This document shows, in pieces, positions 1,259 through 29,773 of a DNA stretch of 57,954 nucleotides. A model generated the notes under the pieces. The model saw only the letters and a list, made by a program, of their open reading frames with translations, ran no database searches and was not told where the DNA came from. How positions within the stretch are numbered: the stretch's first letter is position 1; each line of letters starts with the position of its first letter. The stretch comes from an uncultured Alphaproteobacteria bacterium (GTDB lineage: Bacteria; Pseudomonadota; Alphaproteobacteria; HIMB59). The stretch spans positions 1 to 57,954 of the forward strand of contig CACKOX010000008.1 of NCBI GenBank assembly GCA_902601865.1. The letters are read 5' to 3'. A program made the translations under genes and the position numbers.

Positions 1259-1338
1259 AATCTGAAAAAATATACTTCAACCTTTATGGCAATTACCTTA
1301 TATTAGCTACACTATTATAATAGATAAAGGAGGAATAA

Positions 1339-10484: not shown

Positions 10485-10585
10485 AATATTCTCCCCTGAA
10501 TAGCCAATATATTAAATATAATAAATAAATTTCCAATCCATTTTTTAGTCATTAAGGTAACAGAATAAAGGATAAATAAAATATT

Positions 10586-10602
10586 GTTTCATATTATGGA
10601 AC
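10586..10602. promoter_or_regulatory. putative IclR operator, tmm/mgdA intergenic
   Basis: GTTTCATATTATGGAAC: a GTTTCA / TGGAAC inverted repeat with a 5-base spacer, one mismatch away from the perfect repeats before iclR (18794) and before the second cassette (19617). It lies 57 bases before the mgdA start and 102 bases from the tmm start, so it could control either or both. Binding by the IclR protein is inferred. Confidence 0.6.
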
Positions 10603-10658
10603 GTCATTATTGAAGCAATTAATTTATATATATATTTTCGAATAGGTAAATTTGAATC

Positions 10659-11915
10659 ATGCAAAAATATTCTGTCTTCAGCTTAGTTAAAAACGCTTTC
10701 ACTAATCACCAAGATTGGGAAGTAGCCTGGAAAGACCCTGAACCTAAAAAAGAGTATGATGTAATTATCATAGGTGGCGGTGGTCACGGTCTAGCAACAG
10801 CATACTATCTCGCAAAAGAGCACGGCATAACTAATGTTGCTATTTTAGAGAAAGGCTGGATAGGTGGAGGGAATGTTGGAAGAAATACAACGATTCTTCG
10901 ATCGAATTACATGTTTGACTCAAATGCTCATTTTTATGAATTTGGAATGAAATTATGGGAAACGCTTAGTCAAGAACTGAATTATAATGTCATGTATTCA
11001 CCAAGAGGAATTATTAATCTAGCTCACTCTGATGCACAAATGAATGCTTATGCAAGAAGAGGGAATTCAATGAGGCTGAATGGTATTGACGCAATTCTAC
11101 TTGGTAGGGATGAAATTAAACAAATGATCCCATTTGCAGATTTTTCTGAAACTTGTCGTTTTCCAATACACGGTGGACTGATGCAACCTCGAGGGGGAAC
11201 AGCAAGACACGACGCTGTTGCTTGGGGTTATGCAAGACAAGCGGACTCAATGGGTGTTGATATAATTCAAAATTGTGAAGTCACAGGCTTTGATGTTAAT
11301 AACGGAAAAATTGAAGGCGTTCAAACATCAAGAGGAAGTATTAAAACAAAAAAAGTTGGACTATGTGTTGCAGGTAGTACAACTCTTCTTGCTGACATGT
11401 TAAATATGAGATTACCAATTGAAGCTCATGTTTTACAAGCTTGTGTCTCTGAACCAGTAAAACCATTACTACATCAAGTTGTAACTTTTGGAGCAGGACA
11501 CTTTTATTGCAGTCAGTCTGACAAAGGTGAAATGGTTATGGGAGGCGACCTAGACGGTTATAATAGTTACGCCCAAAGAGGTAATATGCCTATGATACAG
11601 CACGTTCTCACAGGCGGATTAGCAGTATTCCCAAACTTTAGTAGACTAAAAATGCTTAGAACTTGGGGTGGAATTATGGATATGTCTATGGATGGCTCTC
11701 CTATAATAGATAAAACGCATATAGATGGTGTTTATCTAAATTGTGGCTGGTGCTACGGAGGGTTCAAAGCAACTCCTTGTTCAGGGTGGGTTTTTGCTCA
11801 CACAATTGCCCAAGACAAGGTGCATGAATTAAATTCCGACTTCAATTTAGAACGTTTTCATACTGGTAAAATTATTGACGAAAAAGGTGTTGGCCCTAAG
11901 CCCTGGATCGGTTAA
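10659..11915 (+). CDS. mgdA: N-methylglutamate dehydrogenase subunit A (sarcosine oxidase beta-like)
   Basis: FAD flavoprotein subunit of 418 aa in the SoxB family. The nucleotide-binding GGGGHGLATAYYL starts near residue 39. GGTARHDAV holds a histidine at about 184, the position equivalent to the histidine that covalently binds FMN in heterotetrameric sarcosine oxidase beta. Together with MgdBCD it should oxidise N-methylglutamate to glutamate and formaldehyde in the cytoplasm. Sequence alone cannot separate MgdA from SoxB. The mgsABC genes directly downstream, and gmaS nearby, favour N-methylglutamate. It is the first gene of a seven-gene operon. Confidence 0.8.
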   Translation: MQKYSVFSLVKNAFTNHQDWEVAWKDPEPKKEYDVIIIGGGGHGLATAYYLAKEHGITNVAILEKGWIGGGNVGRNTTILRSNYMFDSNAHFYEFGMKLWETLSQELNYNVMYSPRGIINLAHSDAQMNAYARRGNSMRLNGIDAILLGRDEIKQMIPFADFSETCRFPIHGGLMQPRGGTARHDAVAWGYARQADSMGVDIIQNCEVTGFDVNNGKIEGVQTSRGSIKTKKVGLCVAGSTTLLADMLNMRLPIEAHVLQACVSEPVKPLLHQVVTFGAGHFYCSQSDKGEMVMGGDLDGYNSYAQRGNMPMIQHVLTGGLAVFPNFSRLKMLRTWGGIMDMSMDGSPIIDKTHIDGVYLNCGWCYGGFKATPCSGWVFAHTIAQDKVHELNSDFNLERFHTGKIIDEKGVGPKPWIG

Positions 11916-11918
11916 TTA

Positions 11919-12191
11919 ATGTTAGAAATAAAATGCCCCTATTGTGGCAAACGATCTCAAAATGAATTCTCTTATGGTGGTGACGCTACTGTCAAACGTC
12001 CTACGCTAGGTGAAGAAATCTCAACAGAAGATTGGGACAACTTTGTATATTTTAGAGACAACCCTAGAGGTAAACATACAGAACTATGGCATCATGTTTC
12101 TGGGTGTAGACAATGGTTCAAAGCTTCCAGAGACACTGCTACTCATGAAATTTTTGACACATGTAAAATGAACGAGGCTTTCAATGAGTAA
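11919..12191 (+). CDS. mgdB: N-methylglutamate dehydrogenase subunit B (sarcosine oxidase delta-like)
   Basis: Small zinc subunit of 90 aa. C6, C9, H59 and C63 sit at the positions known for the zinc ligands of sarcosine oxidase delta. It is structural within the heterotetramer. The start is three bases after mgdA and the end overlaps mgdC by eight bases, consistent with coupled translation of equal amounts of subunits. Confidence 0.85.
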   Translation: MLEIKCPYCGKRSQNEFSYGGDATVKRPTLGEEISTEDWDNFVYFRDNPRGKHTELWHHVSGCRQWFKASRDTATHEIFDTCKMNEAFNE

Positions 12192-15183: not shown

Positions 15184-15184
15184 T

Positions 15185-15781
15185 ATGCCTGTTATTGAGA
15201 ATATTTCACCTCTTCACTTTGATCATAAACTTGGTTTTTATGGAGACTATGAAAATAAAGATGACATACTTAAATTAACTGAAGTAAAAGAATTATCTAT
15301 TTTTCAAATTGCTAAATTTAAAAAAAGTAGCGTTGATATAAATCAAATAATTTTTAATAATTTAAAATTACCAACTAAAAGCTTAACAGTTACTTCAGAT
15401 AATATTGCTAGGATTTTATGGCTAGGTCCTGATACATGGTTGATAGTATCTAGAGATAAAAAACTCATTGAGGATATTCATAATATTTTTAATGAAAATG
15501 ATTTTGCTGTTACTGACATCTCTCAATCAAGAGCAGTCATTGAAATCAGTGGCTCAAAGTCAAAGGACGTATTAAAGAAAGGTTCACCGTTAAACTTCAA
15601 CAACGATATGTTTAAACCGAATAATTGTGCTAACACAACTTATAATGGAATTAATATTATTATTGATTTTATTAGTGAAAAACCAGACTGCTTTAATCTT
15701 TTTGCCCTCAGAAGTTTTGGAGGCTCTTTTTATCATAGTATAACTGACTCATGTTTAGAGTATGGTTATGAAGCCATATAA
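15185..15781 (+). CDS. mgdD: N-methylglutamate dehydrogenase subunit D (sarcosine oxidase gamma-like)
   Basis: 198 aa when started at the ATG at 15185 (MPVIENISPLHF), one base after the mgdC stop. A longer frame from 15128 would run inside mgdC and adds a hydrophobic tail not expected for the family. SoxG-type features are the WLGPDTWLIVS segment near residue 80 and DISQSRAVIEISG near 112, a GcvT-like fold without catalytic parts. It completes the heterotetramer. This is the most variable subunit of the family, so the call leans on operon position as well as sequence. Confidence 0.75.
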   Translation: MPVIENISPLHFDHKLGFYGDYENKDDILKLTEVKELSIFQIAKFKKSSVDINQIIFNNLKLPTKSLTVTSDNIARILWLGPDTWLIVSRDKKLIEDIHNIFNENDFAVTDISQSRAVIEISGSKSKDVLKKGSPLNFNNDMFKPNNCANTTYNGINIIIDFISEKPDCFNLFALRSFGGSFYHSITDSCLEYGYEAI

Positions 15782-15786
15782 CAAAG

Positions 15787-16668
15787 ATGTGTGGAATAGT
15801 CGGTCTTTACCTAAAGAATAAAAAATACAACAAAGATCTTGGTAAATTTTTAACCGGAATGATGAATAATATGTCTACTCGAGGACCTGACAGTGCAGGT
15901 TTTGCAATCTACTCAACTGAAAGAAAAAAGAAATACAAATATTCTATTTGCTATAACAAAAACAATATTAAAGAAATTAAAAAAAATCTTAGTAAAGAAA
16001 TTAAAGATGCAAAAATAAAAATAATATCTGATCATTTTGTCTTAGAGACATTATTAAAACCTGTAAAAGTAATAAGTATTATCAAGAGTTATAATAATTT
16101 AAATTTAGTTGGCTATGGAAGTTCAATAGAAATATTTAAACAGGTTGGAAATCCAAGAGATGTTGTAAATAATTTTTCACTTAAAAATTTTTCTGGCACT
16201 CATGCTATTGGGCATACAAGAATGGCTACAGAAAGTGCAATTACAACAGATGGATCACATCCTTATTCAACAGGAGAGGATGAGTGCCTAGTTCACAACG
16301 GCTCACTGTCAAATCATAACAATTTAAGAAGAACACTAAAAAAAAAGGGAATAGAAATTAAATCTCAAAACGACACAGAGGTAGCTGCTGGTTATATTTC
16401 AAATGGTTTATCAAATAAGAAATCTTTAAAAGAGACATTAATTGATGGATTAAAAGACTTAGATGGTTTTTACACTTTTATTTCTGGTACCAAAAATGGT
16501 TTAGCAATAGTAAGAGATGAAATTGCTTGTAAGCCTGCTGTTGTGGCAGAAACAAAGGATTACGTTGCTATAGCTTCAGAGTTTCAAGCCATGGCTCATT
16601 TACCTAATGTTAATAAAGCAAAAATTTTTGAACCTGAACCTGGTTTAGTATATAGCTGGGGAAAATGA
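15787..16668 (+). CDS. mgsA: N-methylglutamate synthase subunit A (class II glutamine amidotransferase)
   Basis: 293 aa, beginning MCGIVG, so the N-terminal nucleophile cysteine is exposed once Met is removed. Other class II amidotransferase marks are STRGPDSAGFAIY near 35, GTHAIGHTRMATES near 137, and HNGSLSNHNN. It corresponds to the GATase part of glutamate synthase (GlxB/MgsA type), here a separate subunit. In the N-methylglutamate pathway it is expected to release methylamine from gamma-glutamylmethylamide for addition to 2-oxoglutarate by MgsC. A paralogue lies at 22550 (second cassette). It overlaps mgsB by four bases. Confidence 0.8.
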   Translation: MCGIVGLYLKNKKYNKDLGKFLTGMMNNMSTRGPDSAGFAIYSTERKKKYKYSICYNKNNIKEIKKNLSKEIKDAKIKIISDHFVLETLLKPVKVISIIKSYNNLNLVGYGSSIEIFKQVGNPRDVVNNFSLKNFSGTHAIGHTRMATESAITTDGSHPYSTGEDECLVHNGSLSNHNNLRRTLKKKGIEIKSQNDTEVAAGYISNGLSNKKSLKETLIDGLKDLDGFYTFISGTKNGLAIVRDEIACKPAVVAETKDYVAIASEFQAMAHLPNVNKAKIFEPEPGLVYSWGK

Positions 16669-17351
16669 TTAAATTAAATCTTAAAAAAGACTCTTTGAGA
16701 AAAGTTAACGAGTTACTTCAAAATCTTGACCAAAAATCAAATGATAGAAGTTTCAAAATAATCAATCCAGATGGTAATCACGCTATTTGTGCAGGTTTAA
16801 AAGATGAAATGGATGTAACCATTGAAGGTCATGTTGGTTATTACTGTGCAGGGATGAATATGAAAGCCGATGTGACAGTTAACGGTAATGTAGGAACAGG
16901 CGTAGCTGAGAATATGATGTCGGGATCTGTCCACGTAAAAGGTAATGCTTCTCAGTCGGCTGGTGCTACTGCCCATGGCGGAACATTAATTGTTGATGGA
17001 GATACAAGCTCTCGTTGTGGAATTTCTATGAAGGGTATAGATATTATTGTAAAAGGATCAGTTGGTCATATGTCTGCATTTATGGCACAGTCAGGGAACT
17101 TAGTAATTTGTGGAGATGCTGGTGATGCGTTAGGCGATAGTATTTATGAAGCAAAAATTTTTATTAAAGGAGAACCTAAATCCTTAGGAGCTGATTGTGA
17201 AAAAAAAAATATGAATAAAAAAGATCAAGACCTTCTAAAATCTCTATTGAAAAAAGCAAGTATTGATGAAAATCAATTAACACATTTTAAAATGTATGGC
17301 TCAGCAAGAAAGCTTTATAATTTTAATATAGATAATGTATCGGAGTATTAA
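16665..17351 (+). CDS. mgsB: N-methylglutamate synthase subunit B (glutamate synthase GXGXG domain)
   Basis: 228 aa with the right-handed beta-helix typical of the C-terminal GXGXG domain of glutamate synthase. Its glycine-rich turns recur about every 20 residues, for example VEGHVGYYCAGMNMKADV-like, ENMMSGSVHVKGN and SQSGNLVICGDAGDALGDS. It is a structural subunit between the amidotransferase and the FMN subunit. It overlaps both neighbours by one to four bases. The paralogue is at 23479. Confidence 0.8.
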   Translation: MIKLNLKKDSLRKVNELLQNLDQKSNDRSFKIINPDGNHAICAGLKDEMDVTIEGHVGYYCAGMNMKADVTVNGNVGTGVAENMMSGSVHVKGNASQSAGATAHGGTLIVDGDTSSRCGISMKGIDIIVKGSVGHMSAFMAQSGNLVICGDAGDALGDSIYEAKIFIKGEPKSLGADCEKKNMNKKDQDLLKSLLKKASIDENQLTHFKMYGSARKLYNFNIDNVSEY

Positions 17352-18673
17352 TGTCTGAAAAATTTAAAACCGTTCCCAGAAAATCATGGACCTTTGATGA
17401 TTACACGAACTCAGAAATAAGAAGAGCAGCAGAAACTGGAATTTATGACATACGAGGAGGTGGTTCCAAAAAAAGACTACCTCATTTTGATGATTTATTA
17501 TTTTTAGGAGCGTCTATGTCTAGATACCCACTCGAGGGTTATAGAGAGAAATGTTCAACAAACGTTACTCTAGGGACTAGACATGCAAAAAAACCATTAG
17601 AGCTTGATATCCCTATAACGATCGCAGGTATGAGCTTTGGAGCTTTATCTGGTCCTGCAAAAGAAGCACTTGGTAGAGGCGCTAGTATTTCAGGTACCTC
17701 AACTACGACAGGTGATGGGGGGATGACCCCAGAAGAAAGAGGACAATCTAAACATTTAGTCTACCAATTACTTCCATCAAGATATGGAATGAATCCAGAA
17801 GATTTAAGAAAAGCAGATGCTATAGAGGTAGTGATTGGACAAGGTGCAAAACCTGGTGGTGGAGGAATGTTACTTGGTCAAAAAATTAGTGATCGGGTTG
17901 CTGAAATGCGTACTCTTCCAAAGGGAATTGATCAAAGATCCGCATGCCGTCACCCAGATTGGACAGGCCCTGATGATTTAGAAATTAAAATTCTTGAGAT
18001 AAGAGAAATTACTGGTTGGAAGGTTCCTATTTTTGTTAAACTTGCAGGAGCTAGACCATACTATGATACAGCACTTGCTGTAAAAGCTGGAGCAGATGTT
18101 GTTGTTCTAGATGGAATGCAGGGTGGAACTGCTGCAACACAAGAAGTTTTCATTGAAAATGTTGGTCAACCCACTTTAGCATGTATTAGGCCTGCTGTTG
18201 ATGCACTTTTAGATTTAGATATGCATAGAAAAGTTCAGTTAATAGTATCAGGTGGCATTAGAAATGGCGCAGATGTTGCGAAGGCTATGGCCCTAGGCGC
18301 TGATGCTGTTTCAATTGGTTCATCTGCTTTAATAGCACTTGGAGATAATGATCCAAAATGGGAGAGTGACTACAAAAAATTAGGTACAACTGCTGGTGCT
18401 TATGATGACTGGCACGAAGGAAAAGACCCTTCTGGAATTAATACCCAAGATCCTAAATTAATGAAAAGATTAGACCCTGTTAAAGCGGGTAAACGCCTAT
18501 CAAATTATTTGAAGGTAATGACACTAGAAGCCCAAACAATTGCAAGAGCTTGTGGTAAAAACAGCTTACATAATTTAGAACCAGAAGACTTGTGTGCTCT
18601 AACTGTCGAGGCTGCCGCAATGGCTAGAGTGCCATTAGCTGGTACCGGATGGATCCCAGGATCAAATTTTTAA
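17351..18673 (+). CDS. mgsC: N-methylglutamate synthase subunit C (FMN synthase domain, no Fe-S cysteines)
   Basis: 440 aa, the FMN-binding TIM-barrel domain of glutamate synthase. Typical runs are GMSFGALSGPAKEAL near 95, TGDGGMTPEER near 122, GQGAKPGGGGMLLGQK near 160, and IVSGGIRNGADVAKAMALGA near 298. The loop that carries the [3Fe-4S] cysteines in glutamate synthases reads DDWHEGKDPSGINTQDP here, without cysteines, while the paralogue at 24315 keeps C-x2-C-x4-C. It should reduce the imine of 2-oxoglutarate and methylamine to N-methylglutamate, presumably with an electron donor that does not need the cluster. It is the last gene of the operon. Confidence 0.82.
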   Translation: MSEKFKTVPRKSWTFDDYTNSEIRRAAETGIYDIRGGGSKKRLPHFDDLLFLGASMSRYPLEGYREKCSTNVTLGTRHAKKPLELDIPITIAGMSFGALSGPAKEALGRGASISGTSTTTGDGGMTPEERGQSKHLVYQLLPSRYGMNPEDLRKADAIEVVIGQGAKPGGGGMLLGQKISDRVAEMRTLPKGIDQRSACRHPDWTGPDDLEIKILEIREITGWKVPIFVKLAGARPYYDTALAVKAGADVVVLDGMQGGTAATQEVFIENVGQPTLACIRPAVDALLDLDMHRKVQLIVSGGIRNGADVAKAMALGADAVSIGSSALIALGDNDPKWESDYKKLGTTAGAYDDWHEGKDPSGINTQDPKLMKRLDPVKAGKRLSNYLKVMTLEAQTIARACGKNSLHNLEPEDLCALTVEAAAMARVPLAGTGWIPGSNF

Positions 18674-18793
18674 ATAATTTACTTATTCAAAAAAATGCAC
18701 AACATGCAGATTTTATATACCTAGCCATAGAAAAAATAACTACCAAATAGAGAAAATTATGTTGTGATAATGTAACAGTAGTGTTATTTTATT

Positions 18794-18810
18794 GTTTCAT
18801 AATTTGAAAC
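18794..18810. promoter_or_regulatory. putative IclR operator before iclR
   Basis: GTTTCATAATTTGAAAC is a perfect inverted repeat with a 5-base spacer; with two flanking bases each side the arms reach 8 bp. It ends just before the AAGGAG ribosome site of the regulator gene, a place where a bound protein would block transcription. The same 17-mer recurs at 19617. It suggests autoregulation. Confidence 0.7.
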
Positions 18811-18825
18811 AAGGAGAAACTTTAA

Positions 18826-19596
18826 ATGGGGCAGGATTTAAAGTACATAAATAAATCTTTAGAAAAATCTTTCAAAATCTTAGAGATACTTTCTAAATCA
18901 ATTTTTCCCCTTAAAGCTTCTAATATTTCTCGCAAGGCGGCTCTCTCACGAACGACAACTTTTAGATTACTATCTGTTCTCAGTGATCTTGGGTACATTC
19001 ATAAAAATCTAAGTTCGAATACCTATACAATGGGACACAAGGCGTTTCAATTTGGTGAAACTTCTGATTATCTTCAGTCAATTTCAGAAACATCAAAGGA
19101 GATTTTAAAAGATATATCAAGTCAAACAAATTTGATTACATACTTAGCCATGTTAGAGGGATCACAAATTGTTCACTCAGATAAAATTTCAAATAACACA
19201 GATGATGCAACAATAAGAACTTTTAGAATGAGGTTAGATGCACATTGTTGTGCTCTAGGAAAAGTAATGCTTGCTTATAGACCTGAAAACGAAATTTCAA
19301 CAATCTATAGAAGTTATAATTTTTACCCTCATACAAATAATACAATAATCAATTTAAATGATTTAAAAAAACAACTAACAAAGATTAGAGGTAGTGGTTA
19401 TGCCTTAAATCATGGTGAGGCTTTTGAAAATTCTTATGGTATTGGTGTAGCAATTTTAGATAAAGATAAAAGATCCTTTGCTGGAATCGCTTTATCTGGA
19501 AGTAAAAATATTCTTAATCCAAAAACAATGGATAATTACATTAATTTGTTGCAAGACGCTTCTATTAAAATTTCTAGATTAATTGTTGATAATTAA
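18826..19596 (+). CDS. IclR-family transcriptional regulator
   Basis: 256 aa with the two parts of the family: an N-terminal winged helix-turn-helix (about 8-70, ISRKAALSRTTTFRLLSVL) and a C-terminal effector-binding domain (about 85-255) with the conserved LDAHCCALGKVMLAY. The start has a clear AAGGAG site. It lies between the mgd-mgs operon and the second amine cassette, both of which carry the same palindrome as its own promoter. It is therefore the likely regulator of both. The effector is probably a pathway metabolite such as a gamma-glutamyl amide or N-alkylglutamate; that is a guess from context. Confidence 0.85.
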   Translation: MGQDLKYINKSLEKSFKILEILSKSIFPLKASNISRKAALSRTTTFRLLSVLSDLGYIHKNLSSNTYTMGHKAFQFGETSDYLQSISETSKEILKDISSQTNLITYLAMLEGSQIVHSDKISNNTDDATIRTFRMRLDAHCCALGKVMLAYRPENEISTIYRSYNFYPHTNNTIINLNDLKKQLTKIRGSGYALNHGEAFENSYGIGVAILDKDKRSFAGIALSGSKNILNPKTMDNYINLLQDASIKISRLIVDN

Positions 19597-19616
19597 GCCT
19601 TTTCTTATGAAATTTT

Positions 19617-19633
19617 GTTTCATAATTTGAAAC
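19617..19633. promoter_or_regulatory. putative IclR operator before the second amine cassette
   Basis: The same GTTTCATAATTTGAAAC as at 18794, here inside longer perfect arms of 11 bp (19612-19622 against 19628-19638). It lies between the iclR stop and the start of the FAD oxidoreductase gene (64 bases before its ATG), so it probably controls the 19697-26147 operon. Confidence 0.7.
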
Positions 19634-19696
19634 AAAATGTGTTTTTTTTTGCTATCTAAATTCAAAATACAATTAGTCTTGGAGGATTAAATTAAA

Positions 19697-21043
19697 ATGA
19701 GTCTACCGTCTAAATGTGAATATTTAATAATCGGTGCTGGAATACACGGCTTAAGTACAGCTTGGCATTTATGTAAAAAGTTATCTAGTAAAGGACAATT
19801 AAAAGAAAATTCAGTAGTTGTTATTGAAAAAACAAAGGTTGCAAATGGTGCGAGTGGTGTAGCATGTGGAATTGTAAGAAATAACTACTATCAACCTGCA
19901 ATGAGAAGTTTAATGGCTCACTCTGTAGATGTATGGAATGAAAATGCTGAGGCATTAACATATAAACCAGTTGGTTACATGCAAATCAATTCACAATTAA
20001 TGCATGAAGGCATGTCAGAAGTTTATCACCAACAAAAAGAAATTGGCTTTGACTCAGAATTTATTGAAGGCGCCAGTGACTGCGAAAAGTACATGAAAGA
20101 CATGCTTCCAGATTGGCAAGCTCAAGGAATAACTTCTGTCTTACATGAAAAAAAGACTGGCTACGGAGCCAACAGGGGAGCAATCGAAGGATTTCATAAA
20201 TTAGCCATTTCATCTGGTGCAAAAGTAATTGAGGGTGTTGAAGCAAATAATCTAATCTCCTCAAACGGTAGTGGTGCTGTAACAGCAGTAGAAACATCTG
20301 AGGGAACAATTGAGTGCACACAACTAGTTGTCGCTGCTGGTCCTTGGGTTAGAAAGTTTTGGGAAATTTTAGAGTTACCAAATTCTGTAAAAATTAAAAA
20401 ACCTGACGGATCTTTCACTGATGAAATACCTATGTGGTCATACATGGCTCTTGAAGAAGGTGAGCTTGAAGTTGATCCACGAAGTTATAAAACAGCAAAG
20501 GGAACTGAGTACCCTGTAATTCATGTTGATACTGAGTCAACGCTTGTCTCAAACAAAACAGGAGATGTTATTCATGAAAATGTAATGTGGGGTTTTTATT
20601 ATAAACCAGATGTATACAGAAATGGTATTCAGGGAGGTTCATCTCCATATGATGTAACCAAACCCGCAAATGATATTAAACTTGATCCTTATGGACACGA
20701 CTCTCTTGAATTTCAACCAAGAGCATCTTTTGAGGATAAATGGACTTCTGCTCTGGCTTTTTGTCAGAAGCAATTTGATGGATGTCACAGTAAATATAAA
20801 AGGCAAAATGCCGGCGGTATTGGGTGTGTGACTCCTGATCGTTTTCCTGTATTCGACCAATATAGAGAAAACGTGTATATTATAGCAGACGCAAACCACG
20901 GATATAAAATGGCTGGTGTTGGTGATTTAGTATCCGATGAATTGCTTGGAGGAAAGTCTGAAATTCTAGAACCTTTCAGATTTTCACGTTATGAAGAAGG
21001 GAAATTACATCCAGTTTCAAAGAGCCCATTCCCTTGGAGCTGA
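19697..21043 (+). CDS. FAD-dependent amine oxidoreductase (DAO family, SoxB-like)
   Basis: 448 aa single-chain flavoprotein. The dinucleotide motif GAGIHGLS starts at residue 13, and an acidic strand end follows (VVVIEKTKVANGASGVACG). RNNYYQP resembles the RSNY segment of SoxB. Late motif GGIGCVTPDRFPVFD is the family's C-terminal FAD contact, and ANHGYKMAGVGD follows. There is no GcvT extension and no SoxD/A/G partner nearby, so it likely acts alone on an N-substituted amino acid. It heads an operon with a GlnT-like ligase and glxBCD-like genes, which suggests oxidation of an N-alkylglutamate. Substrate unknown. GGAGG ribosome site at 19681. Confidence 0.75.
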   Translation: MSLPSKCEYLIIGAGIHGLSTAWHLCKKLSSKGQLKENSVVVIEKTKVANGASGVACGIVRNNYYQPAMRSLMAHSVDVWNENAEALTYKPVGYMQINSQLMHEGMSEVYHQQKEIGFDSEFIEGASDCEKYMKDMLPDWQAQGITSVLHEKKTGYGANRGAIEGFHKLAISSGAKVIEGVEANNLISSNGSGAVTAVETSEGTIECTQLVVAAGPWVRKFWEILELPNSVKIKKPDGSFTDEIPMWSYMALEEGELEVDPRSYKTAKGTEYPVIHVDTESTLVSNKTGDVIHENVMWGFYYKPDVYRNGIQGGSSPYDVTKPANDIKLDPYGHDSLEFQPRASFEDKWTSALAFCQKQFDGCHSKYKRQNAGGIGCVTPDRFPVFDQYRENVYIIADANHGYKMAGVGDLVSDELLGGKSEILEPFRFSRYEEGKLHPVSKSPFPWS

Positions 21044-21060
21044 TGTAGAGGAGGAATAAA

Positions 21061-22527
21061 ATGACGGCATTAGAAACTTACGTTGCGGAAAAAGAAAGAA
21101 ACGAAAACGTAAAAAAAGTAAGAAAAAAGATTGATGAACTTGGTATTGAATATATTTATTATCAGTTTATTTCAGTTACAGGTAGAATAGTCGGTAAAGG
21201 TTACCCTGCTGATCACTGGGAAACAGTTGCACAAAAAGGCTTCCAGTTAGTTTATGGATCAACCGCTAACTTATTTACAAATAGAAATGGTGATTACATT
21301 GGTTATGGACCAGAGGCCCACGAATTAGTCGGTATTCCAGATCCTGAAACCTTTGTTCAACTTCCTTGGGATAAAAGAATAGCTAGAGTTTTCTGTACTT
21401 GCTTTAGAAATAGAGAAGAAGTCGAAGACCCAGGTGGTTTTTTAACATCAGATTGTAGAGGAAATCTTAAAAGGCAGCATAAAGAATTTAAAGAAAAACA
21501 TGGCTTAGAATTAAGAGCAGGTACTGAACCAGAAATGATGTGGTTAACCAAAAACGAAGATGGTACACCTACAGGCTCTGGTTTCTCAAAACCTTATTGT
21601 TATCACATTGATCAGTTTGAATCTTTAAGACCTGTTTATATGAAGGTTATAGAGTACTCTAGATTTATGGGTCTTGATATTATTCAAGGTGACCATGAGG
21701 ATGCTCCAGGTCAGTTAGAATTAAACTTCAATTACGATGACGTATTAAGAAATGCAGATAGATTATCAACCTACAGACAGATTTGTGCTCAAGTTGCTAG
21801 AGAATTTAATTTAATAGCATGCTTCTTGTCAAAGCCATTTGTTGGCGTCTCAGCTTCTGGTTGTCACACTAATATTTCTCTTTGGAAAGAGGGAGAGGAT
21901 CAACTCATTCCTTGTGGTAACGATACAAAAGCACTTCCTGGAATGGATCAAGTCTACCATCACAGAAGAGGTGGAGAGAACGTATTCATGCCAGATACTG
22001 ATGACAGAAAAATCCCAGGTAAGGTTGGTCTTAACGCAATTGGGGGTGTTATGGAACACCTTCCTGCTCTGACTGCTCTTGGTTCTTCAACAGTAAACTC
22101 ATATAGAAGACTATGGGACGCTGGTTTTTGGGCTCCTGTTTACGCTGACTGGGGTTACCAAAATAGAACTTGCGGCCTTAGAGTTTCTGCACCTGGAAGA
22201 TTTGAGTACCGATCAGTTGACTCAGCTCACAACCCTTACTTAATGGGTTCTGGTTTATTAGCTGCCTTTGGTCATGGTATCGATGAGAAAATGGATCCAG
22301 GAAAACCAGAACAGCAAAATATGTATGAAGCAAACGCAGGAAAAGAAAAACTACCAATGACTCTTGGAGAGGCACTTGACAAATTAGATAAAGACAAACT
22401 AATCCAAGATGCACTACCGGGCGACATGTTAAGAGTATTCACTGAATATAAAAGAGATGAATGGGAAGAATTCCTAGCAACTCCAACTCAGTGGGACCTT
22501 GATAAATATTTGGATTGCCTACCATAA
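21061..22527 (+). CDS. glnT: GlnT-type glutamine synthetase family ligase
   Basis: 488 aa with GS catalytic features: GTEPEMMW near 158 (metal-binding glutamate), GDHEDAPGQLELNF near 217, SGCHTNISLW near 266 (ATP and metal loop), and NRTCGLRVSAPGRFEYRSVD near 373 (phosphate and glutamate contacts). It is clearly distinct from GlnA (50027) and from GmaS (26758). The linked glxBCD-like genes match the glnT-glx association known in rhizobia. It probably joins glutamate to ammonia or an amine through the gamma-carboxyl. The amine is not known. Strong AGAGGAGGA ribosome site; no GlnE-type NLYDLP adenylylation motif. Confidence 0.72.
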   Translation: MTALETYVAEKERNENVKKVRKKIDELGIEYIYYQFISVTGRIVGKGYPADHWETVAQKGFQLVYGSTANLFTNRNGDYIGYGPEAHELVGIPDPETFVQLPWDKRIARVFCTCFRNREEVEDPGGFLTSDCRGNLKRQHKEFKEKHGLELRAGTEPEMMWLTKNEDGTPTGSGFSKPYCYHIDQFESLRPVYMKVIEYSRFMGLDIIQGDHEDAPGQLELNFNYDDVLRNADRLSTYRQICAQVAREFNLIACFLSKPFVGVSASGCHTNISLWKEGEDQLIPCGNDTKALPGMDQVYHHRRGGENVFMPDTDDRKIPGKVGLNAIGGVMEHLPALTALGSSTVNSYRRLWDAGFWAPVYADWGYQNRTCGLRVSAPGRFEYRSVDSAHNPYLMGSGLLAAFGHGIDEKMDPGKPEQQNMYEANAGKEKLPMTLGEALDKLDKDKLIQDALPGDMLRVFTEYKRDEWEEFLATPTQWDLDKYLDCLP

Positions 22528-22549
22528 AGTAAATTATAAGGAGAAAAGT

Positions 22550-23491
22550 ATGTGTGGAATAGCTGGAGTAATTAATAAAAAGAAAACAGTAAACGTTGGA
22601 GAGCAAATGGGCCTAATGTTACAAGGACTTAAACATAGAGGACCTGACTCAACTGGTTATGCTATGTATGGAACACCACTTAAAAAAGGTTTTGTTATGA
22701 GATTTAAAATATCTGAAAATGAAGCTGAAAAAGTTAATGCTAACGTTGACTCGCCTGTTGATTTGAAAAATAGAAAAAATGCTGTCGATGCTATTTTGAA
22801 AAAACATGGTGCAAAAGTAACTAAGCAAAGCTCCAGCACCCCATATGCTTTTCGATATATATTTGATTTCAAAGGAGACCTTACTGATTTAGCAACTGAA
22901 ATTGAAACTGTTGAAAAAACTGAAATTTTATCCATTGGTAAAGGTCTTGAGTTAATTAAAGACTTGGGCGATGCAACCACTGTATCAAATCAATACGGTC
23001 TTGGAAAATTTATGGGTACACATGGTATTGGCCATACAAGAATGGCAACTGAGTCAGATGTCGATATAAAATCTGCCCATCCTTATTGGGCTTTTCCTTT
23101 TGAGGATGTCTCCGTAGTTCATAACGGTCAATTAACAAATTACTGGGGAAACAGAAGAGTTCTTGAGAGAAAAGGTTACCGTTTTAATTCAAATTGTGAC
23201 TCAGAAATTATTGCAGTTTATATTGCTGACAAAATGGCTAACGGTGTTGACTTGGAAAAATCAATGCATGATAGTTTAGACGAACTTGATGGTGTTTTCA
23301 CATATGTTGTTGCCACAAAAGATCAACTAGGAATGGCTAAAGACCATATGGCTGCAAAACCAATGGTGATCTATGAAAGTAAAGACATCGTAGCTTGTGC
23401 ATCAGAGGAAGTTGCGATTAGAAATATCTTTCCTCACGAAATTAAAACTTATGACCCATATGAAGCGGAGGTGAAAGTATGGCAGGCTTAA
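22550..23491 (+). CDS. glxB: class II glutamine amidotransferase, second copy
   Basis: 313 aa. The start is chosen at ATG 22550 with AAGGAG ahead, because the class II nucleophile must be the cysteine right after Met (MCGIAG); an upstream frame start at 22499 would bury it. HRGPDSTGYAMYG, GTHGIGHTRMATESD and HNGQLTNYWGNRR are the family motifs. It is a paralogue of MgsA at 15787. It should release ammonia or an amine from the GlnT product and hand it to the FMN subunit. It overlaps the next gene by 13 bases. Confidence 0.8.
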   Translation: MCGIAGVINKKKTVNVGEQMGLMLQGLKHRGPDSTGYAMYGTPLKKGFVMRFKISENEAEKVNANVDSPVDLKNRKNAVDAILKKHGAKVTKQSSSTPYAFRYIFDFKGDLTDLATEIETVEKTEILSIGKGLELIKDLGDATTVSNQYGLGKFMGTHGIGHTRMATESDVDIKSAHPYWAFPFEDVSVVHNGQLTNYWGNRRVLERKGYRFNSNCDSEIIAVYIADKMANGVDLEKSMHDSLDELDGVFTYVVATKDQLGMAKDHMAAKPMVIYESKDIVACASEEVAIRNIFPHEIKTYDPYEAEVKVWQA

Positions 23492-24315
23492 CAAAAAAAA
23501 CATCAGCCTTTGATGACGAAAATTTATCAGGTAGATCCCAAAAACTTTTTTTTGAAGTTACCGAAGAAGAAAATTTCACTTATTATGGAAATCATGAAGT
23601 TGATTTTAATAAGAGAACTTCTATTGACTGTGAGGGAATTACAGCTCACGATCTAAATCAAAAAATTAGAGATGCTATAAAAAAAGGCTATGGTTCTATT
23701 GTTATCAAAAACCCTGGTGCCAAACACTCGCTAGGTGTTGGTATCCTTAATAAATTAAATTTAATATTCGAGGGAAGTCTAGGATACTTTGGTATTGGAT
23801 GTATTGATGGACCAACTGTAAGGATTAACGGAAGAGTAGGATGGTCATGTGCTGAAAATATGATGTCTGGTAAAGTTGTCGTTGAAAATAATGCTGGCTC
23901 TTGCTTTGGAGCCGCCTTGAGAGGTGGAGACTTAATAGTAAAGGGCGATGCAGGTGCAAGAACAGGAATAGACATGAAGGGTGGTACCATACTTATTGGA
24001 GGAAATGCTGGTGCATATACAGGTTTTATGATGCAAAGAGGAAGAATTATTGTTTGCGGGAATGTTAACGCAAATATGGGTGACTCTATGTATGATGGAA
24101 TTATTTTTGTTGGTGGAGAGCCTCACTCTTTAGGAACTGACTGTGTTCAAGGTGAATTGAACGAACATGAAGTCAGATGGCTTGAACAAAAAATTAAAAA
24201 TGCTGAGATCGACTGCAAGGTCCCAGCTTCTAAGTTTAAAAAATACGTTGCAGGTAGAATGCTTTGGAATTATGACAATCTAGAGCCAGCAGAAAAGAAA
24301 GGAATATTAGGCTAA
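23479..24315 (+). CDS. glxC: glutamate synthase GXGXG-domain protein, second copy
   Basis: 278 aa, a paralogue of MgsB with about 50 additional residues, mostly an N-terminal part (to about residue 75). The beta-helix repeats run from about 80 to 240 with AENMMSGKVVVENNAG, RTGIDMKGGTILIGGNAGA and MMQRGRIIVCGNVNANMGDS. A structural partner between GATase and FMN subunits. Coupled to both neighbours by overlapping ends (13 bases upstream, one base downstream). Confidence 0.8.
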   Translation: MAGLTKKTSAFDDENLSGRSQKLFFEVTEEENFTYYGNHEVDFNKRTSIDCEGITAHDLNQKIRDAIKKGYGSIVIKNPGAKHSLGVGILNKLNLIFEGSLGYFGIGCIDGPTVRINGRVGWSCAENMMSGKVVVENNAGSCFGAALRGGDLIVKGDAGARTGIDMKGGTILIGGNAGAYTGFMMQRGRIIVCGNVNANMGDSMYDGIIFVGGEPHSLGTDCVQGELNEHEVRWLEQKIKNAEIDCKVPASKFKKYVAGRMLWNYDNLEPAEKKGILG

Positions 24316-25649
24316 TGGCAAAACGTAATACACAATTATTAGGACAAAACTCAATCTTTACCCCTGAGGTAATGGACGATATTCACATCAAATCACAACT
24401 AGGTCGTTATCGTATGCGTGGTATGGCCTTAATGAAAAAAATACCTCACTGGGATGATTTAGTATTTTTACCGGGGACATTAACACGATTTGTTATTGAG
24501 GGTTACAGAGAGAAATGTTTAACCGAGACTATAATAGGTCCTAGAGCAAAAAATCCTATCAAACTAGATATTCCCGTTTATATAACAAGTATGAGTTTTG
24601 GTGCTCTTTCTTATGAAGCAAAAACTGCCTTAGCTAGAGGATCATCAATGGCAGGAAGTGCTACATGTTCTGGAGAAGGTGGAATGATACCTGATGAAAG
24701 AAGATATTCTCACAAATGGTACTATCAATGTATTCAATCAAGATACGGTTTTAATCCGCATCATGCTCAACTAGCTGATGCTATTGAAGTTTTTATAGGA
24801 CAAGGTCAAAAAGTTGGAATGGGCGGTCACTTAATGGGCCAAAAAGTTACAGACCAAGTTGCTGAAATGAGATCCTTACCCGCTGGTATTGACCAAAGAT
24901 CTCCAGCTAGACATCCAGACTGGATGGGCCCAGATGACTTAGCTCTTAAAGTCCAAGAATTAAGAGAGTTAACTGATAATCAAGTCCCAATTCAATTGAA
25001 GTTAGGTGCATCAAGAGTTTATGACGATGTTAGAATGGCAGCAAAATGCGATCCTGACTCTATATTTTTAGACTCTATGGAAGGCTCTACAGCTGCTGGT
25101 CCACATATAGCTGCAGCAAACACAGGTATTCCAGGTATCGGTGCTATTAGGGAAGCAAGAAGAGCTCTAGATGACGTGGGCAAAACTGGTGAAATTTCAC
25201 TTGTTTTCGCCGGAGGTATTAGAGATGGTGCTGATATGGCGAAAGCTTTGGCTTTAGGTGCTGATGCTATCGCTATCGGAACTGCTGGATTGGTTGCCTT
25301 AAACTGTAACAAAGATATCCCCGAAGCTGATTATGAAAAAGAAATGGGAGTAGAAGCAGGTTATTGTTACCACTGTCATACAGGTAGATGTCCTGTCGGC
25401 GTAGCTACTCAAGATCCTGTTTTAAGAAGCAGGTTAGATCCAACAGAAGCGGCAGAGAGAGTTTATAATTTATTAAGCACTATGACTCTTGAGTGTCAAA
25501 TGCTTGCAAGAGCGTGCGGTAAAACAAATATTCACTCTCTTGAACCAGAAGATTTAGCTGCTCTAACAATGGAGTCATCTGCAATGGCTAAGGTGCCATT
25601 AGCTGGAACTGATTTAACTGTGGGTGTAGATAACTACCACTCTATTTAG
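24315..25649 (+). CDS. glxD: FMN-binding glutamate synthase domain protein with Fe-S cysteines, second copy
   Basis: 444 aa. FMN barrel motifs as in MgsC: TSMSFGALSYEAKTAL near 97, SGEGGMIPDER near 116, FAGGIRDGADMAKALALGA near 297. Unlike MgsC it keeps cysteines C351, C354 and C359 in YCYHCHTGRCPVGVATQDP, likely ligands of an Fe-S cluster as in glutamate synthase, although the first spacing is shorter than in GltB. It would transfer ammonia or an amine to 2-oxoglutarate using ferredoxin-like electrons. With GlnT and GlxBC it forms a split glutamate-synthase-like system separate from mgsABC. Confidence 0.8.
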   Translation: MAKRNTQLLGQNSIFTPEVMDDIHIKSQLGRYRMRGMALMKKIPHWDDLVFLPGTLTRFVIEGYREKCLTETIIGPRAKNPIKLDIPVYITSMSFGALSYEAKTALARGSSMAGSATCSGEGGMIPDERRYSHKWYYQCIQSRYGFNPHHAQLADAIEVFIGQGQKVGMGGHLMGQKVTDQVAEMRSLPAGIDQRSPARHPDWMGPDDLALKVQELRELTDNQVPIQLKLGASRVYDDVRMAAKCDPDSIFLDSMEGSTAAGPHIAAANTGIPGIGAIREARRALDDVGKTGEISLVFAGGIRDGADMAKALALGADAIAIGTAGLVALNCNKDIPEADYEKEMGVEAGYCYHCHTGRCPVGVATQDPVLRSRLDPTEAAERVYNLLSTMTLECQMLARACGKTNIHSLEPEDLAALTMESSAMAKVPLAGTDLTVGVDNYHSI

Positions 25650-25658
25650 GAGGTAAAA

Positions 25659-26147
25659 ATGGTTAAAAAGAAAATTGTAAAAAAGAAAACTACAACAGCA
25701 AAATCAAAGAAAGCTGTTAAAAAATCTTCTAATCCTAAAGGCTACCAAGTTGTAGGTGGAGCTAAGTTAAAAGACAAAGAAATTAAAACATCTAGAGAAA
25801 AAATGATCGGTCAGCATATCGGTTATCGATATGATGTAAACCTAATACCTGACTACAAACATTTAACACCATTTCTTAAACAATACATTGAAATTATGGG
25901 GTGGGATGATTTGAATTGGTTAGAGGATATACATATGGGCTTTGAGGGAGATACTCCAGCTGTTTTTGATCGAAACGCTAATGCTTGGATAACTTTACCA
26001 AAAAAAATTAAGTTACCTAAAAACCAACAAGATAGAGATATGCTCGCAAGAGAATTACTTATTAAATTTCAAATGTCGCCTAACCATCCATTAGTACAGT
26101 TAAAAAGAACATACGCAAAAGGCGATAATTTCCAGTTAGTTGAATAA
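25659..26147 (+). CDS. uncharacterised protein with basic N-terminal tail, last gene of the glnT-glx operon
   Basis: 162 aa, no family recognised. The first 30 residues are almost all K, T, A and S, like a disordered basic tail; the rest is a compact acidic-to-neutral domain with WDDLNWLEDIHMGFEGD and a C-terminal helix rich in charged residues. AGGAGG ribosome site 7-12 bases before the ATG, nine bases after glxD, so it is surely co-expressed. It might be an accessory subunit or an assembly factor for the GlnT/Glx enzymes. A two-way terminator follows. Confidence 0.7.
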   Translation: MVKKKIVKKKTTTAKSKKAVKKSSNPKGYQVVGGAKLKDKEIKTSREKMIGQHIGYRYDVNLIPDYKHLTPFLKQYIEIMGWDDLNWLEDIHMGFEGDTPAVFDRNANAWITLPKKIKLPKNQQDRDMLARELLIKFQMSPNHPLVQLKRTYAKGDNFQLVE

Positions 26148-26157
26148 ATATCATTAA

Positions 26158-26184
26158 TTAAGAGGAGATTCCTTCTCCTCTTAA
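26158..26184. terminator. bidirectional hairpin terminator
   Basis: An 11-bp perfect stem (TTAAGAGGAGA with TCTCCTCTTAA) and a 5-base loop, with A/T-rich tails on both sides. It lies between the convergent ends of the glnT-glx operon and the gmaS operon and can serve both. Confidence 0.8.
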
Positions 26185-26198
26185 TGAAATTTTAAAAA

Positions 26199-26753
26199 CT
26201 AATCTTTAATCCTTATTAACTTTGATTTTTTCCAGTTAGGAATAAATTTTATTACATCTATTTCATTTCCTAATCCTGGATTAAAGTTCTTATTGTGCCA
26301 AAAAATATTTTCCCAGTGTTCCTCATCTTTTTCAAGTATAAAGGGTGAACATATAAGTCGATAGTTAGTTGAAAGATGAATAAAATCGAGAATACAAGAG
26401 CTATCTTTTATAATCTTTTTGGATAATTTTGATCCTTTTGCAAATGTAGCAAAAAGTGAGTCTGAAAACTTATCTTTATCCATAAAATATTCAGATGATA
26501 AAAATTTATTCATTTTATCAAACCTATCTGCTGGGTCATAGGTACGCTTAAAAGTATGCTCAAATAATTTAGTAGTATTGACAGGGTCATTTTCTGCTAT
26601 GACAACAATTATTTTAGAGAGTTCATTTCCTTTTTTATCTAACAAAAAAGGCATCATAGATGAATTTGGTCTTCCATTCTCAGTCCTAAATGCTTGAATT
26701 CTAGACTGGCACTGCCAATCTAGAAATTTTTCTTGTAATACCTCTGGCGTCAT
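26199..26753 (-). CDS. uncharacterised protein co-transcribed with gmaS
   Basis: 184 aa, soluble, no signal peptide and no motif I can name. It starts MTPEVLQEKFLDWQCQS and has a basic, charged C-terminus (NWKKSKLIRIKD). It begins four bases after the gmaS stop, so it is co-translated with it and most likely acts in methylamine use. It could be a partner or regulator of GmaS, or a subunit of the dimethylamine-oxidising enzyme that is otherwise missing here; I cannot decide from sequence. Confidence 0.75.
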   Translation of the reverse strand: MTPEVLQEKFLDWQCQSRIQAFRTENGRPNSSMMPFLLDKKGNELSKIIVVIAENDPVNTTKLFEHTFKRTYDPADRFDKMNKFLSSEYFMDKDKFSDSLFATFAKGSKLSKKIIKDSSCILDFIHLSTNYRLICSPFILEKDEEHWENIFWHNKNFNPGLGNEIDVIKFIPNWKKSKLIRIKD

Positions 26754-26757
26754 TTTC

Positions 26758-28065
26758 TTAACAGTCTAAGGTTGTTTCTCTTTCCCAACTAGAAAGTTGT
26801 TTATTAAAGGTATTCCAATCTTGTTCTTTTAATTTTACATAGCTGTCCACTAAACCATCCCCAAATCCTGCTCGAATAACTTTTGACTTATTAAAATCAC
26901 GAATTGCATCAAGAAGATTTAAAGGAAGTTTTTTTACCCTTCCTGCTTTATGACCTTCGGTATACATATTTATATCCAATCTTTTTCCAGGATCTCTTTT
27001 GTTATTAAAACCATCTAAGCCTAATAAAAGTATCCCTGCTTGAAGTAAATAAGGATTGGTTGCACCATCCATTAGTCTCAATTCAAATCTTCCAGCTCCA
27101 GGAACTCTTACCATATGGGTCCTATTATTACCCGCCCAGGTAATCGAACTTGGCGACCAAGTTGCACCAGAGGTTGTAACACTTCCATTTATTCTTTTAT
27201 AAGAGTTTACAGTAGGATTAAAAATAGCAGCCATTTTTTCAGCGCTCTCCATTATTCCACCTAAGAAATTATAACCAGTTTTGGATAAACCAAGATCATC
27301 TTTTTTATCTAAGAACATATTCTTCTTACCAGCCTTATCCCAAATAGATATATGACAGTGACAACCGTTACCCGTTAAATGAGTAAACGGCTTGGGCATA
27401 AATGTAGCTCTTAAAGAATGTTTTTCAGCAATTGACTTGACCATAAATTTAAAGAAAGCATGTCTATCGGCTGTTACTAGGCAATCAGAGAAATCCCAAT
27501 TCATTTCAAATTGACCATTTGCATCTTCATGATCATTTTGATAAGGCTTCCATCCCAATGAAATCATTGAGTCACATATTTCTGTAATAACATCATATCT
27601 TCTCATTAGAGCAGAAGAGTCATAACAAGGTTTAGCTTGTGTATCTCTGTCATCTGATAAAGAAGTTCCATCCTCATTTACTAAAAAAAATTCACATTCA
27701 ACTCCAGATTTCATATGAAGATTTTTTTTTGCTGCCTTTTCTATTTGTCTCTTTAAGGCCACTCGTGGCGAGGCCTCAACTGGTTTACCATCCATATATA
27801 AATCCGATGCGACCCAAGCAATTTCTTTATTCCAAGGAAGTTGAATAACACTATCACCGTCTGGCATTCCAAACATATCTGAGTCTGCTGGAGACATATC
27901 TAACCATGTTGCAAAGCCTGCAAAACCCGCTCCTTCTGATTGAATTTCATCTATTGCTGTTGCAGGGACTAGTTTTGATCTTAGAACCCCAAATAAATCT
28001 ACAAAACTTACAAAAAAATATTTCACCCCATTTTTTTTAGCGAATTGATGAAGGTTAGTGCCCAT
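26758..28065 (-). CDS. gmaS: gamma-glutamylmethylamide synthetase
   Basis: GS-family ligase of 435 aa making gamma-glutamylmethylamide from glutamate, methylamine and ATP. It matches GmaS closely in length and in diagnostic runs: EGAGFAGFATWLDM near 44, GWKPYQNDHEDANGQFEMNW near 183, TGNGCHCHISIWD near 242, and NNRTHMVRVPGAGRFELRL near 315. It lacks the GlnA adenylylation motif. Ribosome site AGAGGAG precedes the ATG. The upstream region shared with amt holds a perfect palindrome at 28091. It works upstream of mgsABC and mgdABCD, which are not in the same operon here, unlike the classic gmaS-mgs-mgd order. Confidence 0.92.
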   Translation of the reverse strand: MGTNLHQFAKKNGVKYFFVSFVDLFGVLRSKLVPATAIDEIQSEGAGFAGFATWLDMSPADSDMFGMPDGDSVIQLPWNKEIAWVASDLYMDGKPVEASPRVALKRQIEKAAKKNLHMKSGVECEFFLVNEDGTSLSDDRDTQAKPCYDSSALMRRYDVITEICDSMISLGWKPYQNDHEDANGQFEMNWDFSDCLVTADRHAFFKFMVKSIAEKHSLRATFMPKPFTHLTGNGCHCHISIWDKAGKKNMFLDKKDDLGLSKTGYNFLGGIMESAEKMAAIFNPTVNSYKRINGSVTTSGATWSPSSITWAGNNRTHMVRVPGAGRFELRLMDGATNPYLLQAGILLLGLDGFNNKRDPGKRLDINMYTEGHKAGRVKKLPLNLLDAIRDFNKSKVIRAGFGDGLVDSYVKLKEQDWNTFNKQLSSWERETTLDC

Positions 28066-28090
28066 TAAATTTCTCCTCTTTCATATATGT

Positions 28091-29563: not shown

Positions 29564-29586
29564 AGGTAATAAGGAAAGGATAAATT

Positions 29587-29760: not shown

Positions 29761-29773
29761 ATACTTTATTATT

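Follow-up and report, generated by a model that had tools for sequence, protein, structure and literature searches.

A six-gene operon with a small protein family of its own as a candidate dimethylamine pathway in SAR11 and other Alphaproteobacteria

Which amine does a marine alphaproteobacterium handle with a second set of glutamyl-amide genes, when a regular N-methylglutamate set lies just beside it? The question is raised by contig CACKOX010000008.1 of an uncultured alphaproteobacterium, analysed here as one stretch of 57,954 bases (the window; 32.5% G+C) with a methylated-amine gene region inside. Downstream of an IclR-family gene, six co-directional, tightly spaced or overlapping genes form an operon:

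18826..19596, + strand: IclR-family gene (Pfam HTH_IclR and IclR_C)
19697..21043, + strand: OX, oxidoreductase dependent on flavin adenine dinucleotide (FAD), 448 amino acids (Pfam DAO)
21061..22527, + strand: GSL, ligase of glutamine synthetase (GS) fold, 488 amino acids (Pfam Gln-synt_C)
22550..23491, + strand: GLXB, class II amidotransferase subunit, 313 amino acids, N-terminus MCGIAG
23479..24315, + strand: GLXC, GXGXG (glutamate synthase alpha-like) subunit, 278 amino acids
24315..25649, + strand: GLXD, glutamate-synthase-like subunit of the flavin mononucleotide (FMN) type, 444 amino acids (Pfam Glu_synthase)
25659..26147, + strand: P162, conserved protein of no known family, 162 amino acids

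An earlier note on this DNA had described a six-gene operon after the mgd-mgs genes and the IclR gene, with a single-chain FAD oxidase, a three-subunit split glutamate synthase and a terminal protein of no known family. All of this was borne out: every open reading frame (ORF) was found at its position, in one direction and close to or overlapping the next, with the DAO domain in OX and the amidotransferase, GXGXG and Glu_synthase domains in the three subunits, and P162 matched nothing in Pfam or NCBIfam at E values up to 0.01. We lean, by a small measure, towards the operon being a route for dimethylamine (DMA) that is independent of DmmDABC and runs parallel to the N-methylglutamate pathway. 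The observations are the genes, their conserved linkage, a shared operator, co-occurrence and the conserved catalytic residues; from these we infer which amine is used, how each step proceeds and what P162 does. In the proposed route, Tdm would convert trimethylamine N-oxide (TMAO) to DMA, and GSL would join DMA to the gamma-carboxyl of glutamate to give gamma-glutamyl-dimethylamide. The amidotransferase subunit of GLXBCD would release the amine, whose reductive coupling to 2-oxoglutarate would yield N,N-dimethylglutamate. OX would then take one methyl group off this product, giving N-methylglutamate and a one-carbon (C1) unit, and MgdABCD or a relative would convert N-methylglutamate to glutamate. 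Glutamate had earlier been assumed as the product of the oxidase itself; the predicted product is now N-methylglutamate, which follows from the DMA reading.

The ligase had been named GlnT, an identity that did not hold. GSL scored 298.3 bits against the GlnT/GmaS model TIGR03105, far under the cut-off of 469.6 bits, which the gene at 26758-28065 passed with 645 bits. Judged by its sequence, GSL is a family separate from GlnT, and it is about 30% identical to the GmaS of the window. The residues of RhGmaS given in the relevant passage of PMC7948447 as amine-binding or catalytic (Lys30', Tyr147, Gln175, Asp177, Glu179, Glu186, Asn188, Trp300, and Arg312) were mapped onto GSL by an alignment made here and checked in the 90 orthologous matches that scored above 500 bits across 100 loci. 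The equivalents of Tyr147, Gln175, Asp177, and Glu179 (Y181, Q209, D211, and E213 of GSL) as well as those of Glu186, Asn188, Trp300, and Arg312 (E220, N222, W357, and R369) were kept in 90 of 90, and that of Lys30' (K46) was present in 88, the position not being covered in the other two. The position of the ammonium-binding Asp50' of GS is V64 in GSL, with valine in 89 of the 90 matches and no coverage in one. GSL has the catalytic set of GlnT/GmaS, with equivalents of Asp177, Glu186, and Arg312, Trp300 replacing the flap Glu and Asp50' absent, and the signature of the ammonia-using glutamine synthetases (Asp50' plus the flap Glu) was not found in the alignment. Since the GmaS catalytic residues are kept and Asp50' is missing, GSL looks like an amine ligase rather than an ammonia-using synthetase. 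Ligation of DMA would be feasible for the GS/GmaS fold, because RhGmaS itself takes DMA, though weakly (Michaelis constant 16 mM, versus 27 uM for methylamine; PMC7948447).

Relatives of GSL with 51-53% identity were found on plasmids of Paracoccus sp. TOH (L128 10505-16672) and Ruegeria sp. SCSIO 43209 (L129 9416-18456). In both cases the neighbours include another GS-like gene and class I amidotransferases, and in one of them also a cytochrome P450 and a 2Fe-2S protein; it is possible that these plasmid clusters serve secondary-amine catabolism. The pip and mor operons of mycobacteria are a case of cyclic secondary-amine catabolism, and a search of the literature for GS-like genes in such operons found nothing useful. 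No relatives of GSL were found in viral contigs.

GLXBCD consists of three separate subunits (amidotransferase, GXGXG, and FMN synthase), the arrangement expected of an MgsABC-type enzyme, and the catalytic Cys2 of GLXB was present in 92 of 92 orthologous matches covering the position. GLXD did not group with MgsC in a tree of 33 rows, drawn from 137 matches after near-copies were dropped; a 100/100 branch separated the two, and one row labelled GLXD (L033_1517) was a long-branch paralog. A CxxC-C motif of Fe-S type occurred in all 98 GLXD matches above 600 bits and in all 22 GLXD-labelled rows of the tree. Among MgsC sequences, none of the 33 matches scoring above 600 bits had the motif, and 2 of 11 tree rows did (G030 and L104), the other nine being without it. 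The MgsC of the window (17351-18673) has no Fe-S cysteine motif.

OX stayed under the cut-off of every NCBIfam model that it matched, with 66 bits against TIGR01373 (sarcosine oxidase beta or N-methylglutamate dehydrogenase, SoxB-type; cut-off 529). Its model had a mean pLDDT of 68.6, and the overall fold alone was used. The folds nearest to this model were L-proline dehydrogenase and sarcosine oxidases, followed by L-amino acid deaminase, N-methyltryptophan oxidase, glycine oxidase, and dimethylglycine oxidase/dehydrogenase. On this predicted fold the relatives of OX are amino-acid flavoenzymes, several of them acting on N-methyl amino acids, and OX is proposed to be an amino-acid N-demethylase with N,N-dimethylglutamate as substrate. 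Dimethylglycine dehydrogenase and sarcosine dehydrogenase likewise use one flavoenzyme for the dimethyl and another for the monomethyl amino acid, the same two-flavoenzyme logic that is proposed for OX and the Mgd step; unlike that pair, OX, with its 448 amino acids, had no match to a GcvT/folate-binding domain. OX could also act on DMA by other chemistry, oxidising it to methylamine and formaldehyde, with GSL and GLXBCD processing the methylamine. The distribution described below would suit that scheme just as well, and a predicted, unconfirmed general amine oxidase is expressed in nitrogen-limited HTCC1062 (PMC5520151). We consider the scheme quite unlikely, as the fold relatives listed above act on amino acids and not on simple amines, and the scheme would duplicate GmaS/MgsABC where these are present.

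The N-terminus of P162 varies and is rich in lysine; the core, some 120 residues long, has 52 columns that are invariant among 20 sequences from 20 genomes. No credible Pfam match was obtained for 20 members, the best match among PDB sequences had an E value of 0.011, and in Foldseek a low-confidence model (mean pLDDT 64.7) had no match with an E value of 0.001 or below. The probable role of P162 is that of a small subunit or an assembly factor of GLXBCD or OX.

The operon shares an operator, the 19-bp palindrome TGTTTCATAATTTGAAACA, with other methylated-amine genes of the window. The sites and the genes around them are as follows:

19616..19634: operator, exact, upstream of OX and the operon
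18793..18811: operator, exact, upstream of the IclR gene
10585..10603: operator, 3 mismatches, between tmm (- strand) and mgdA (+ strand), 55 bp before mgdA
1251..1269: operator, 2 mismatches, 69 bp before tmoX (tmoXWV-tdm operon)
start at 1339: tmoX, OpuAC-type binding protein, with ABC subunits after it
5435..7786, + strand: tdm, Tdm, DMA-producing TMAO demethylase (NCBIfam NF053776, 1153 bits, cut-off 1100)
7805-8971: GcvT-like gene between tdm and tmm
9150..10484, - strand: tmm, trimethylamine (TMA) monooxygenase (NCBIfam NF058570, 733 bits, cut-off 675)
10659..15781, + strand: mgdABCD, N-methylglutamate dehydrogenase of the sarcosine oxidase family
15787..18673, + strand: mgsABC, N-methylglutamate synthase

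The tmo, mgd, and mgs names were taken from domains, gene order, similarity, and the literature (order and similarity for mgsABC). The alpha, beta, and delta subunits of MgdABCD passed sarcosine oxidase family models and the gamma subunit reached 79 bits, under its cut-off of 144; the set is read as Mgd and not Sox because it adjoins mgsABC. With up to 3 mismatches, the window held 7 strand matches to the operator at 5 sites against 0.16 expected, and 0 of 100 shuffles reached 7, so that the idea of a shared operator was confirmed. The fifth site, at 36641 inside an ORF, is probably due to chance. At the same tolerance, all 18 related loci holding the OX start had the operator 53-61 bp before that gene, and 7 of the 17 holding the IclR start had it before the IclR gene. 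Among congeners, G030 carries the palindrome without mismatch 55 bp before mgdA, with no site assigned at tmoX or the IclR gene, and G259 has a site 69 bp upstream of tmoX. One regulator, for which the IclR product is the probable candidate, probably acts at this operator on TMAO import and demethylation, on TMA oxidation or N-methylglutamate dehydrogenase, and on the six-gene operon; the "or" reflects the position of the 10585 site between tmm and mgdA.

Comparison of gene neighbourhoods showed that the linkage is kept in relatives. P162 was found in 27 of 289 alphaproteobacterial genomes, including that of the window, and adjoined a GLXD ortholog in 27 of 27 loci. In 20 wider loci, taken from 20 of the other 26 P162-bearing genomes with genes called by codon usage and some missed, GSL, GLXB, GLXC, and GLXD were present in 20 of 20, OX in 18, and full-length or long Tdm matches in 7; searched for genome-wide, OX was present in 24 of the 27. 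When the sample spanned the phylum, P162 occurred in 2 of 299 genomes (that of the window and G037), both alphaproteobacteria already counted, and with so few this sample was not used for co-occurrence. A scan of genome contigs for P162 confirmed at least 592 encoding stretches, and 61 of 80 among the matches listed were from Pelagibacteraceae or Candidatus Pelagibacter. Beside the operon, 14 of the 20 wider loci had a GntR-family regulator gene on the opposite strand (family tested in one), and four (L033, L036, L041, and L043) had a carbon-nitrogen hydrolase gene of nitrilase type just upstream (family tested in L033). Downstream of the operon in L037, L038, and L039 were amino-acid-permease, PhyH, and FMO-like (Tmm-like) proteins, with tdm farther on (families tested in L037).

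A pointer to the substrate is the company that the operon keeps. Tdm was called above 600 bits, and PF11927, the haem N-demethylase subunit of the DmmA family, served as a proxy for DmmA. Among the 289 genomes Tdm was present in 24 and PF11927 in 38, three of these with weak matches of 51-59 bits in the genus of the window. The operon was found in 19 of the 24 Tdm-bearers, 18 of them with P162 and one (G173) with GLXD and OX on a contig ending at the P162 position; four had strong PF11927 without P162 (G252, G159, G283, and G022), none had both, and one (G259) was uninformative since its contig ends within tdm. Fisher tests gave p 1e-18 for the operon with Tdm over the 289 genomes, and, for the operon against strong PF11927, p 1e-4 among Tdm-bearers and p 0.03 over all 289. 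Another sample consisted of 99 genomes of the family of G207, which was taken as SAR11 because seven proteins of G207 best matched named Pelagibacteraceae loci with 79-96% identity. P162 was present in 28 of them and Tdm in 24, all 24 Tdm-bearers having P162 (p 3e-19), and PF11927 was found in 0 of 99. No PF11927 domain was found in the proteins of the operon. The weak PF11927 protein in the genome of the window (L131 6080-6793, G000 C7; 237 amino acids, 59-60 bits) lies beside TauE and dipeptidase genes; the three weak matches of the genus, considered as a hidden Dmm, were rejected for their low score and, in the genome of the window, these TauE-exporter-like and dipeptidase-like neighbours. 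The shared operator, the adjacency of tdm, the co-occurrence of Tdm and P162 in the SAR11 family, and the mutual exclusion of the operon and strong PF11927 among the sampled Tdm-bearers argue for methylated amines, and DMA above all. An amine other than methylamine had been proposed before, with ethylamine, ethanolamine, and isopropylamine as examples; the operon tracks Tdm, shares the operator and, in the Tdm-bearers sampled, has no strong DmmA-family gene alongside, so the amine is probably DMA rather than one of these.

Several observations weigh against the DMA reading. No OX was detected in G071, G077, and G229, three of the 27 P162-bearers. G000 and G030 hold the operon together with a weak PF11927 protein, and four of the 28 SAR11-family P162-bearers are without Tdm (G595, G599, G611, and G644). 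Counted by family, the Tdm-bearers with the operon and with PF11927 are 10 and 3, and PF11927 is a mere proxy for DmmABC; the Fisher values are too optimistic, as the species are related and the adjacency of tdm and the operon in SAR11 inflates the statistics. The relevant passage of PMC5520151 says that evidence of DMA oxidation by SAR11 was lacking at that time. Lastly, 9 of the 27 P162-bearers in the alphaproteobacterial sample are without full Tdm (eight with GcvT-domain matches alone and G079 with a Tdm fragment), which would suit another small amine, such as ethylamine, ethanolamine, isopropylamine, or a cyclic secondary amine, with the proximity of TMAO genes reflecting a general amine island. 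The plasmid relatives of GSL in Paracoccus and Ruegeria, with their GS-like genes, class I amidotransferases, and one P450, would fit such a substrate too. It is very unlikely in view of the operator sites at tmoX and mgd/tmm, the closeness of tdm and the presence of P162 in all 24 Tdm-bearers of the SAR11 family, all of which indicate methyl groups, and of nearby C1 genes (formate-tetrahydrofolate ligase family, 4 of the 20 wider loci).

The distribution of the N-methylglutamate genes bears on another alternative, a second isofunctional methylamine pathway, in which GSL would form gamma-glutamylmethylamide, GLXBCD N-methylglutamate, and OX glutamate, replacing or backing up GmaS/MgsABC/MgdABCD. 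The plan of the parts and the catalytic residues are those of the GmaS pathway, the mgd operon is under the same operator, and an MgsC ortholog (above 640 bits) was absent in 16 of the 27 P162-bearers. Ten of the 27 have GmaS without an MgsC ortholog, which counts against the DMA reading and suits this alternative, as GLXBCD may also take gamma-glutamylmethylamide and serve methylamine there. However, GmaS was over the cut-off in 21 of the 27 P162-bearers and MgsC was present in 11, and the two sets are retained near each other in small genomes, namely G030 (1.4 Mb), where they share an operator, and many SAR11-type loci. A methylamine pathway would also leave the exclusion of strong PF11927 and the handling of DMA by SAR11 unexplained; this main alternative is unlikely. 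Matches to MgdC could not be told apart from sarcosine oxidase alpha. Six of the 27 (G048, G071, G077, G086, G194, and G269; three of them at least 95% complete) had neither GmaS nor MgsC, which fits N-methylglutamate as the product of the proposed DMA route because free methylamine would be bypassed; if the operon made methylamine as Dmm does, GmaS and Mgs would remain necessary in these six genomes. Both patterns of gene absence would be consistent with a GLXBCD able to join small methylated amines to 2-oxoglutarate, its range being extended to DMA by GSL.

In SAR11 the operon was followed through 60 loci (L067-L127 without L115), 59 of them from Pelagibacteraceae or Candidatus Pelagibacter and one (L070) assigned only to Alphaproteobacteria, and neighbours were counted only where the stretch permitted the test. 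The end of tdm was no more than 0.5 kb before OX in 36 of 44 loci, amtB came after P162 in 51 of 55, and the downstream genes included GmaS in 43 of 44 and mgsC in 15 of 44. In the remaining 8 of 44, a divergent pair of malate/succinate-CoA-ligase type and a CitE-like lyase lay upstream of OX. In the sole locus of these that was tested (L118, 763-3759), the CoA-ligase beta subunit passed the malate--CoA ligase model (633 bits, cut-off 604) as well as succinate--CoA ligase models, and the CitE-like lyase passed no cut-off; these genes may be a serine-cycle (C1) set beside the operon. For HTCC1062, published labels include SAR11_1302 as a transporter, SAR11_1303 as an aminomethyltransferase, SAR11_1304 as 'monomeric sarcosine oxidase', SAR11_1313-1315 as glxBCD and SAR11_1316 as glnT (PMC3160333), SAR11_1305 as 'glnT' (PMC5069961), and SAR11_1309 as a hypothetical protein preceding 1310, amt (PMC2704228). 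From this gene order and these labels, and not from an alignment, we infer that the six-gene operon of HTCC1062 is SAR11_1304-1309. SAR11_1302 and SAR11_1305 drop together in sulfur-limited stationary cells (0.22 and 0.19 in the first value column; PMC5069961).

Farther downstream, the window contains the following genes:

26199..26753, - strand: ORF of 184 amino acids, of no known family
26758..28065, - strand: GlnT/GmaS, gamma-glutamylmethylamide synthetase family (TIGR03105, 645.3 bits, cut-off 469.6)
start at 28286: gene read as amtB

The product of 26199-26753 matched neither Pfam nor NCBIfam models, and tblastn located relatives of it (23-71% identity) near the operon in 12 of the 20 wider loci; by sequence and position, this ORF appears to encode a second family-less protein linked to the pathway. 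Besides the amtB-like gene, the region 28286-33441 has a class I amidotransferase gene at 29980, one for a third GS-like ligase at 31015 (359 bits against TIGR03105, under the cut-off of 469.6) and one for an alpha/beta hydrolase, and is perhaps another gamma-glutamyl-amine cluster. No Rfam match at gathering score was found in 9000-29000.

Among known systems, the N-methylglutamate pathway (GmaS, MgsABC, and MgdABCD) resembles the operon in its GS-fold ligase with the GmaS catalytic set, its three-subunit split synthase-like enzyme, its FAD enzyme of sarcosine-oxidase fold and, in the genus of the window, the same operator at mgd. The operon differs from it by GSL (about 30% identity to GmaS), the separate clade of GLXD, the single-chain OX in place of MgdABCD, the additional P162 and, as proposed, a secondary amine as substrate. 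The idea of a second glutamyl-amide pathway built on the same plan is partly supported: it gains support for an amine other than ammonia, a linked oxidase, a terminal protein, the operator, and conservation, with chemistry that stays predicted, and none for the identity of GlnT. DmmDABC of Ruegeria pomeroyi would serve the same step after Tdm, the disposal of DMA; the operon has no PF11927 protein, would replace haem N-demethylation with an ATP-dependent ligation and an oxidation by a flavoenzyme, and was never found together with strong PF11927 in the sampled Tdm-bearers. GlnT-GlxBCD is a gene set of rhizobia. This set and the glxBCD-glnT genes SAR11_1313-1316 of HTCC1062 (PMC3160333) have gene types similar to those of the operon; SAR11_1313-1316 is the Mgs/GmaS set, distinct from the operon.

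In the relevant passage of Lidbury et al. 2017 (PMC5520151), dmmDABC is missing from all SAR11 representatives and from further abundant bacteria of the sea, and a metabolic bottleneck was inferred that would explain DMA-rich marine aerosol. HTCC1062 grows on TMAO as sole nitrogen source, far more weakly than with ammonium, and may, as was suggested, recruit a DmmDABC isoenzyme (PMC8918994); the relevant passage of a 2026 paper names the Dmm route alone for DMA (PMC13390433). Literature proposing the operon for DMA was not found by title and the start of the abstract, a search that did not extend to subscription papers and preprints, so that novelty is unproven, and no bacterial gamma-glutamyl-dimethylamide or dimethylglutamate pathway was found by titles. 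The operon is a concrete six-gene candidate for the DMA step missing in SAR11, located beside TMAO genes in many of the commonest bacteria of the ocean. We see an even chance that it is a DMA pathway of SAR11 and many Alphaproteobacteria, via gamma-glutamyl-dimethylamide and N,N-dimethylglutamate and with a new small protein family, and that the published bottleneck is not as described. DMA is a gas that seeds marine aerosols, and if this pathway is real, the DMA bottleneck of the surface ocean would not exist in the form in which it was published.

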